In this document: piece after piece, positions 6,915-8,970 of the stretch | Layout of the letters: each line of letters begins with the position of its first letter | Position numbering within the stretch: the first letter of the stretch is position 1 | The notes under the pieces: generated by a model | The model's input: the letters and a program-made list of their open reading frames with translations, nothing else | Database searches by the model: none | What the model was told of the DNA's origin: nothing | Source: Planctomycetota bacterium | GTDB taxonomy: Bacteria; Planctomycetota; Phycisphaerae; SM23-33 | NCBI GenBank assembly: GCA_029553505.1 | Contig: JAKPKY010000113.1 | Coordinates: 1-64,000, forward strand | Direction of reading: 5' to 3' | DNA: 64,000 nt | Program-made: the position numbers and the translations under genes

Positions 6915-7301
6915 TCATTTCCACAATCCCAGCAGCGCCCGCCCGGCGAACAGGCCCGCGAAGACCAGCGCGATGCCCAGCGCGCACGAGCCGGCCACGT
7001 TCGCCGCCGCCCAGCCGTACTGGCGGTCCTGGACCAGTTGCACCGTCTCCAGGCTGAACGTGCTGAACGTCGTGAACGCCCCCAGCACGCCGATCAGCAG
7101 CCCGATCCGCAGCGGTTCCGAGACGATCCGCTCGGAGAACACCGCCGCCAGCAGCCCGATGACGAACGAGCCGAGCAGGTTGACCGCGAGCGTCCCCCAG
7201 GGCAGCACGCCCCCGGCGATCCGCTGCACCAGCCCGCCCAGGCCGTACCGCGCCAGCGCCCCGACCGCCCCGCCGATCGCTATGCAAAGAAGTTTATGCA
7301 T
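6915..7301 (-). CDS. crcB: Fluoride ion channel CrcB/FluC
   Basis: GGAVGALARYGLG, WGTLAVNLLGSFVIG, GVLGAFTTFSTFSLE motifs. Confidence 0.93.
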   Translation of the reverse strand: MHKLLCIAIGGAVGALARYGLGGLVQRIAGGVLPWGTLAVNLLGSFVIGLLAAVFSERIVSEPLRIGLLIGVLGAFTTFSTFSLETVQLVQDRQYGWAAANVAGSCALGIALVFAGLFAGRALLGLWK

Positions 7302-7329
7302 GTTGTTTCCGGGCTTGATATATTTTTGT

Positions 7330-7358
7330 TTGACAATGCCATTTTGATGTCCGATAAT
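7330..7358 (+). promoter_or_regulatory. Predicted sigma70-type promoter TTGACA-17-GATAAT
   Basis: Exact -35 consensus, 17-nt spacer, 5/6 -10, no + strand protein gene downstream. Confidence 0.7.
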
Positions 7359-7364
7359 ACTGTT

Positions 7365-7434
7365 AATTCAGGATATCTGAAGGTGGATGGCCCTGAGCCA
7401 TCGGGAAAAGGTCCGCAAGGGCCTTTTCTTTTTT
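7365..7434 (+). ncRNA. Candidate small RNA with three hairpins and intrinsic terminator
   Basis: Hairpins TTCAG/CTGAA, GATGGC/GCCATC, AAAAGGTCC-GCAA-GGGCCTTTT then TCTTTTTT; preceded by the 7330 promoter. Confidence 0.55.
7406..7434 (+). terminator. Rho-independent terminator with GCAA tetraloop and T tract
   Basis: 9-bp stem (one G.U), GNRA loop, T-rich tail on + strand. Confidence 0.75.
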
Positions 7435-8218
7435 ATGGCAACAACTTTCGCCCGTATATCTTTTTTCCGCTTCCCTTGTAATACTTTTCCATCAGTATTT
7501 TCGTGACCTTGTCCCCAAAAATATCCGTTCTGTTGTCCTCGATCTTCCGGGCCTCCAGCAGGATTTCTCTTCGACTGGGATGAGCCAGCAGGTCCGCGAG
7601 TTGAAGACCCGATATGTTGTTTTGCTTCGGCTTGACCTTTAGCTGCCGACTGGTGAGAACGGTTTGGAATTGGTCCGCACTGACGTATTCCGTACCTTGT
7701 TCCCAAAGGCGGGAAAAGGCGTCTTTAAGCCGCCGATCTTCTTTTCCGTTACGCGATTCCGCCAAAGCATCTCCACAACAGTTCAATTGTTTCAGGAAGA
7801 AAACATACCTTTCCAGCATCACCTTCAGACAGTAGTGATACGGATCGTGCCGCCAGACATGATATTGGTTCCGATGTTCCAATTTATCAATCACAACCGT
7901 TACAACTGTGTATTCCCACCGTTTCAAGACCGCCAATAGGTCCGTATCGAATGCCTCACGTGTGTGGGGATCTCGTAAAACGCGAAACGGGGGATGCCCC
8001 GCGATGAGTTCCTTGCGGTGCAGAATGACCGGATCATCCGGATGGGAATGGAAGTAACGGTTCTTCAGGCTCTCCATCTCCGGGTGAACCGCTTCCCGAA
8101 CATGATTCAACGATAGGATCACGCCGGTCAGGCTCAGGAAGCGATGGTTGGGATCGTGCGCGCTTCCCAGATCGGAATTGCCGACTTCGTCAATGTAGAT
8201 TCTTTGTTTCGGCTGCAT
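7433..8218 (-). CDS. DUF3800 domain-containing protein
   Basis: RIYIDEVGNSDLG start and GLQLADLLAHPSRR C-terminal motif; AT-richer than neighbours. Confidence 0.78.
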   Translation of the reverse strand: MQPKQRIYIDEVGNSDLGSAHDPNHRFLSLTGVILSLNHVREAVHPEMESLKNRYFHSHPDDPVILHRKELIAGHPPFRVLRDPHTREAFDTDLLAVLKRWEYTVVTVVIDKLEHRNQYHVWRHDPYHYCLKVMLERYVFFLKQLNCCGDALAESRNGKEDRRLKDAFSRLWEQGTEYVSADQFQTVLTSRQLKVKPKQNNISGLQLADLLAHPSRREILLEARKIEDNRTDIFGDKVTKILMEKYYKGSGKKIYGRKLLP

Positions 8219-8238
8219 TCAACCCCCAAGTTTCCACA

Positions 8239-8970
8239 CTACCACCTCGCCTCGTGGAACGGGCCCATGCCGTCGTCCTTGGGCTTGGGTTTCGGTAACG
8301 TGCCGATTACCGACTCCGCCAGGCGCAGGTCGCCCGGCGTGGTGATCTTGACGTTCCGCGGGTCGCCCATCACCACGTTGACGGGGTGCCCGAGGCGCTC
8401 GACAAGCTGGGCGTCGTCGGTGGCGTCGGCGACGGGCCCGGCGTAGGCCCGCACGAGCAGCTCGCGCCGGAAAACCTGCGGCGTCTGCGCTTCCCAGAGC
8501 CCCTCGCGCGGAAGCGTCTGGGCGATCACGCCGGCGCCGGAAACCTTCTTGAGCGTTCCGTGCAGCGGATAGGCGAGGATGGCCGCGCCGGTCTTGCCGG
8601 CCTCGGCGAACACCGCGTCGATCCACAACGCCGAGACGCACGGGCGGACGGCGTCGTGGACGGCCACCAGCTCCGCCTCGTCCGAGACCCGCGCCAGGGC
8701 GTTGCGGACGGAATCGGCCCGCGTGGCCCCGCCCGTCACCACCGTCACACCCATGAAACCCAGCGCCCCGCCGAACCGGGCGCGGACCTCCTCCTCGTCG
8801 GCGGCCGAGACGACCAGGAGGGTCTGCACCACGTCGTCGCGCCCGGTGAAGACTTCCAGCGTGCGGAGGAAGACCGGCTGACCGGCAATCCGCTGGAAAA
8901 TCTTGTTCGCCTTGTCGCCGAAGCGTTTGCCCGACCCCGCCGCGGGCACGATGACCGAAACTTTCGCCAT
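8239..8970 (-). CDS. ispD: 2-C-methyl-D-erythritol 4-phosphate cytidylyltransferase
   Basis: VIVPAAGSGKRFG, VAVHDAVRPCVS, LWEAQTPQVFRRELL, GDPRNVKITTPGDL. Confidence 0.92.
   Translation of the reverse strand: MAKVSVIVPAAGSGKRFGDKANKIFQRIAGQPVFLRTLEVFTGRDDVVQTLLVVSAADEEEVRARFGGALGFMGVTVVTGGATRADSVRNALARVSDEAELVAVHDAVRPCVSALWIDAVFAEAGKTGAAILAYPLHGTLKKVSGAGVIAQTLPREGLWEAQTPQVFRRELLVRAYAGPVADATDDAQLVERLGHPVNVVMGDPRNVKITTPGDLRLAESVIGTLPKPKPKDDGMGPFHEARW

Follow-up and report, generated by a model that had tools for sequence, protein, structure and literature searches.

A small RNA gene convergent with a DUF3800 gene in a Planctomycetota bacterium: a possible RNA antidote to an RNase-H-fold nuclease

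A structured RNA gene beside a DUF3800 gene

The stretch of DNA analysed here (the window) comprises 64 000 nucleotides of a contig from a Planctomycetota bacterium. As the earlier note stated, the region 7330–7434 lies between two genes on the minus strand, crcB (6915–7301; PF02537) and a gene encoding a 261-residue DUF3800 protein (7433–8218; PF12686, E 9.7e-13). On the plus strand, the −35 element TTGACA (7330–7335) and the −10 element GATAAT (7353–7358) flank a 17-nt spacer and match 11 of 12 consensus positions. This promoter was the best of four promoter-like sites in the 4 kb scanned, where 0.4 were expected, and transcription is expected to start near 7365. The RNA proper (7363–7434, plus strand) folds as had been described, with hairpin H1 (TTCAG GATAT CTGAA, 7367–7381, five pairs) and hairpin H2 (GATGGC CCTGA GCCATC, 7386–7402) followed by an intrinsic terminator (7403–7434; stem 7403–7430, T-run to 7434). 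A linker, AGGTGGA (7381–7387), joins the two hairpins and overlaps both, as A7381 closes H1 and G7386 doubles as the outer base of H2. The minimum free energy was −30.1 kcal/mol (z −3.0), with only one of 200 shuffled sequences as stable. The T-run overlaps the DUF3800 stop codon (7433–7435), placing the two genes tail-to-tail. Terminator hairpins numbered four in the scanned 4 kb against 3.5 expected, so the hairpin by itself is not above chance.

Conservation provided the stronger evidence. A covariance model (R1) and an alignment (A2) were built from eight RNAs of the same class, termed class A, taken from eight other genomes with the window left out. R1 nevertheless found the window RNA at 7363–7433 on the plus strand (53.2 bits, E 2.1e-12), the only significant match in the 64 kb (next best E 2.1). 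Because the RNA is conserved to the extent that a model built without the window recovers it, we conclude from comparative sequence evidence that 7330–7434 is a small RNA gene and not a chance arrangement. In an alignment of 18 class-A RNAs fitted to the model (A5), 95.9% of pair cells were standard pairs and 11 pairs had changes on both sides. Double-change cells numbered 53, compared with a mean of 16.8 in shuffled alignments (0/500 as high), and the signal was lost once partners were slid by one to three columns. The plain MAFFT alignment A2 gave 18 double-change cells against 6.7 in shuffles (0/500). Among the 18 sequences, H1 was 100% paired with changes on both sides in three of its five pairs, H2 had such changes in four of seven pairs, the linker was present in 17 (AGTTGGA in L054/L098) and the terminator stem was common to all homologues. 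The hairpins noticed earlier are thus conserved. Upstream, the best promoter match ended 4–5 nt before the start of the RNA model in all 19 class-A copies; individually, the match was significant in most of these and weak in two (genomes G113 and G025). The fixed spacing is a stronger point than the match in any single copy.

These data bear on the simplest explanation, anticipated in the earlier note, that the hairpin serves only as a terminator, bidirectional or for the minus strand, or as a cis-antisense element between DUF3800 and crcB. In favour of this reading, the terminator stem is flanked on both sides by tracts of A and T and directly adjoins the stop codon of DUF3800. The reading fails because the promoter, H1, the linker and H2, which lie far outside the terminator, are conserved and covary as well, and the same class of RNA occurs at sites lacking DUF3800 or crcB. 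We therefore regard it as extremely improbable.

Several other candidates were considered and rejected. The sole open frame on the plus strand spans the region, but length differences between homologues are not multiples of three, arguing against a small protein; the H1 loop is 4 or 5 nt long among class-A homologues. An Rfam search of the window gave no gathering-level match and no fluoride riboswitch for crcB, and the matches to Atu_C8, Histone3 and ctRNA were attributed to chance. When 60 relatives were searched by BLASTn, no copy of the RNA emerged and the matches were all short, either terminator-like or within coding sequence, because the sequence diverges while the structure is kept. 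Short terminator-like pieces were likewise all that BLASTn found on plasmids, and an exact-pattern scan of viral contigs gave no match to the RNA.

Association of the RNA with DUF3800

DUF3800 homologues were collected by following the neighbouring gene rather than the RNA, in a sample of 397 genomes of the class. A homologue of the window protein was carried by 13 genomes. (The sole genome-contig match to the DUF3800 query, L042, proved to be a chance peptide match in a valyl-tRNA-synthetase-like frame.) Nine clade-A DUF3800 genes had a 3′ flank that could be read, and at each of their stop codons the RNA was present in convergent orientation. A search of 294 genomes of the phylum with R1 yielded three matches, all adjoining DUF3800; one of the three, the single strong extra match in the phylum, comes from genome G533 outside the class. 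When promoter-plus-terminator units were scored strictly by computer, these were found antisense at 11 of 44 DUF3800 3′ ends, a lower bound as the strict score misses visible units, compared with none of 167 other ORF ends; a single unit (1/44) was seen on the 5′ side, and the random rate was 0.6%.

When the RNA classes were mapped onto a tree of 50 DUF3800 sequences, they needed the minimum of eight changes, compared with a shuffled mean of 25.6 (0/200); classes B, D and 'none' were assigned by eye, and a few of the loci under 'none' may hold an unclassified RNA. Support for clades A1 and A2, the latter containing the window protein, was 98–100%. Certain DUF3800 clades lack an RNA of this kind. 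Judged by this tree, RNA class follows protein clade exactly. Co-inheritance with DUF3800, together with this tracking of the protein clade, points to the protein as the partner of the RNA. The earlier note had seen the layout of a trans-acting sRNA. A free-standing gene with promoter, terminator and covarying hairpins is what we find, while the base-pairing sense of 'trans-acting' is unsupported. Such an sRNA could use AGGTGGA, which is unpaired and nearly invariant, as an mRNA seed, with DUF3800 a mere passenger, and the promoter–RNA–terminator layout and the existence of RNAs without DUF3800 would suit it. It does not account for the RNA being present at nine of nine clade-A genes, for its class tracking the protein, or for unrelated DUF3800 clades having other RNAs at the same place, and we consider it improbable.

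Some of those other RNAs are recognized by Rfam. DUF3800-V RNAs (L085 and L091), DUF3800-IX RNAs (L074 and L080) and a DUF3800-VII RNA (L087) are all convergent at the DUF3800 stop, and the window RNA shares their position and orientation; like them, the class-A RNA is structured, conserved and encoded at a DUF3800 gene. The DUF3800-I model had no match in the seven genomes searched. We also observed a second, far wider class of RNA convergent at DUF3800 3′ ends, with the form GGATYGGG-loop-CCCGGTCGGCG followed by a terminator and with no match to the Rfam DUF3800 models. It occurs in genomes of the phylum (L024, L058, L059, L069, L073 and L090), on plasmids of Bradyrhizobium, Sinorhizobium, Methylobacterium and Shinella (L143, L144, L145 and L149) and on Paracoccus phage Pkon1 and Pseudomonas phage JBD68 (L146 and L148). 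Class-B RNAs at L143:3221–3288, L090:1326–1394 and L073:2216–2284 gave sub-threshold matches (21–23 bits, cut-off 39) to BjrC68 (RF02353), a Bradyrhizobium sRNA that has already been studied by experiment; from this resemblance, BjrC68 may belong to the DUF3800 RNAs itself. In another clade, convergent promoter–RNA–terminator units without an Rfam match were seen at the DUF3800 genes of L082, L089 and L072, the RNAs of the first two beginning GGAGRCTCGGCC.

Comparison with a sister genome (G001), whose crcB is 96% identical, showed crcB and ispD to be adjacent there, with approximately 38 bp in place of the block at 7296–8240 (edges approximate). Since the same crcB–ispD adjacency is found in G012, the block was gained by the window lineage. 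It has a GC content of 49% compared with 69–71% in its surroundings, and it contains the RNA and DUF3800 only. The sequence comparison thus indicates that a single insert of approximately 940 bp brought both genes into the site between ispD and crcB. Relatives of the DUF3800 protein are also present on plasmids and phages. The insert altered the start of crcB at 7296–7301 (MHKLL, compared with MKLL in the sister) and separated the gene from its former upstream region, while DUF3800 now lies approximately 20 bp behind ispD; the minus-strand genes may form one operon.

RNA copies without an intact DUF3800 gene

R1 identified 18 strong RNAs in the class sample. Seven adjoin an open DUF3800 gene and one a 43-residue C-terminal remnant (G025), while eight have no detectable DUF3800 neighbour. 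The remaining two adjoin clade-A genes with one premature in-frame stop (L053 in G082 and L055 in G113), which could be a sequencing error as both are draft metagenome-assembled genomes; their RNAs are among the best-scoring of all. Three genomes (G085, G270 and G271) have the RNA and no PF12686 protein anywhere. In total, five RNA-bearing genomes lack any PF12686, two of them with weak RNA matches only; these are small numbers of draft genomes, in which DUF3800 could sit elsewhere or on missing contigs, and all such presence counts ignore phylogeny. The orphan RNAs retain promoter, stems and terminator. The opposite case was not found in the class sample: wherever the 3′ flank of a clade-A DUF3800 gene could be read, the RNA was there; G186 has an N-terminal relic of DUF3800 (51 residues) only, without RNA. 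This one-way pattern of loss is predicted for an antidote, because a toxin can be lost from such a pair but the antidote cannot go first.

Some orphans lie beside genes for PIN, BsuBI/PstI, DUF2283, ParE/RelB-like or Vsr proteins. Those at L121 (G270), L122 (G320) and L120 (G271) are tail-to-tail, at 20–40 nt, with a PIN-domain gene, a BsuBI/PstI restriction endonuclease gene and a DUF2283 gene; possibly this reflects chance within defence islands, or an exchange of partners. Neighbours of this kind, together with the single insert holding both genes, would fit a structural RNA or DNA site that promotes mobility or recombination of defence cargo and has no role towards the protein. A sigma-70 promoter conserved at fixed spacing is not expected of such an element, and neither a recombinase nor shared insert ends were seen, which makes this quite improbable, slightly more so than a base-pairing sRNA.

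The window protein matches PF12686 well above threshold (49.5 bits, cut-off 21). A sequence search of the PDB found no relative, but its AlphaFold2 model (pLDDT 92.2) gave RNase HII (1eke) as the best PDB fold match (E 4.8e-3, probability 0.99), with moderate TM-scores of 0.39/0.45. In 12 sequences, residues D10, E11, D161 and D209 do not vary and E154 hardly does. An RNase-H-like nuclease fold is predicted for the protein, in agreement with the published RNase H fold of DUF3800, which has a catalytic rearrangement and was earlier linked to putative non-coding RNAs (PMC10910872).

We suggest, with the balance tipping slightly in favour, that the locus is a two-gene module in which an antitoxin-like RNA binds and restrains an RNase-H-fold DUF3800 nuclease. 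The sRNA of approximately 70 nt would be made from its own promoter, tail-to-tail with DUF3800, and would bind the protein to keep its nuclease activity in check. The module could then work as an addiction or anti-phage unit, with the nuclease released once the supply of RNA falls. The logic would be type III-like, with AbiF and its ncRNA the nearest worked example. This antidote reading is favoured because the RNA is kept where DUF3800 is broken, a remnant or absent, with promoters persisting in the orphans; because of the invariable pairing in clade A, the match between RNA class and protein clade and the one-piece insert; because of the predicted fold with its conserved acidic residues; and because the abiF motif, from the same survey as the DUF3800 RNAs, turned out to be an antitoxin RNA that acts by binding its partner protein. 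Against it stand the convergent gene order without RNA repeats, which differs from classic type III modules, the moderate fold match to RNase HII and the lack of any PADLOC model matching the locus.

Alternatively, the DUF3800 nuclease could depend on the RNA as a cofactor, for its activation or positioning, in an effector ribonucleoprotein; RNA-only loci would then be decaying remains. Tight pairing and co-inheritance, the RNase-H-like fold and the presence of DUF3800 in some Cas12a2 and type VI-F loci (PMC10910872, PMC12669027) are all compatible with this. Retention of promoter, stems and terminator in the orphans is unexpected for a cofactor that has lost its use, and the aligned class-A RNAs contain no long variable unpaired stretch to act as a guide, so a guide RNA was rejected. 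We judge an effector ribonucleoprotein to be rather unlikely, while more plausible than a base-pairing sRNA. Extending the antidote reading, DUF3800 genes and their convergent sRNAs in general might constitute widespread, unrecognized RNA-antidote modules with an RNase-H-fold toxin, in which the window class would be a separate family of antitoxin RNA whose orphans persist after toxin loss; we hold this wider proposal tentatively, at somewhat less than an even chance.

Relation to known RNA–protein systems

DUF3800-associated RNAs are a known kind, reportedly described as motifs in the survey of Weinberg et al. in 2017, from which the abiF motif is also said to come. We found no described function for them in the literature searched: so far they have been predicted motifs without a function, while DUF3800 nucleases in CRISPR loci have gone without explanation. 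By sequence and structure the class-A RNA is a class outside Rfam, set apart from the Rfam models only. The window locus adds this class to those known, along with a fixed convergent layout of RNA and protein across several DUF3800 clades. One-piece insertion, co-inheritance and retention of the RNA upon decay of the protein gene are genetic evidence; with it, the observation of an RNA near a DUF becomes an antidote hypothesis that can be tested.

The closest relatives by type are the Rfam DUF3800 RNAs (DUF3800-I, RF02969; -V, RF02964; -VII, RF02967; -IX, RF02968), which are likewise short structured sRNAs at DUF3800 genes, those of models V, VII and IX at the same convergent 3′-end position. 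The window RNA differs in fitting none of them in sequence or structure, with no match at E ≤ 10 in window positions 7200–7550 or at the class-A loci.

Type III toxin–antitoxin systems (ToxIN, CptIN and TenpIN) share the proposed logic of an RNA restraining a nuclease protein. In the classic examples the RNA consists of tandem repeats, lies upstream of the toxin and is cotranscribed with it, and the toxin has the ToxN fold. The window locus has instead a single RNA unit on the opposite strand with its own promoter, and its protein is predicted to be RNase-H-like, with no ToxN, CptN or TenpN-fold toxin among the fold matches shown.

DUF3800 proteins also serve as accessory nucleases in some Cas12a2 (V-A2) and type VI-F CRISPR loci (PMC10910872, PMC12669027), which share the protein family and RNase H fold. 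Beside the window gene no CRISPR element was observed, and the module is a stand-alone one.

The abiF system (RF03085; for example RCd22/AbiFCd), in which the ncRNA neutralizes the toxic AbiF (Abi_2) protein by direct binding (PMC12373285), resembles the window locus in pairing a protein with one structured ncRNA and in its occurrence on mobile elements. The two differ in their proteins, AbiF being an RNase of the HEPN type, linked to Cas13, whereas an RNase-H-like fold is predicted for DUF3800, and in their layout, the abiF RNA lying upstream of AbiF in C. difficile and the DUF3800 RNA being convergent with its gene.
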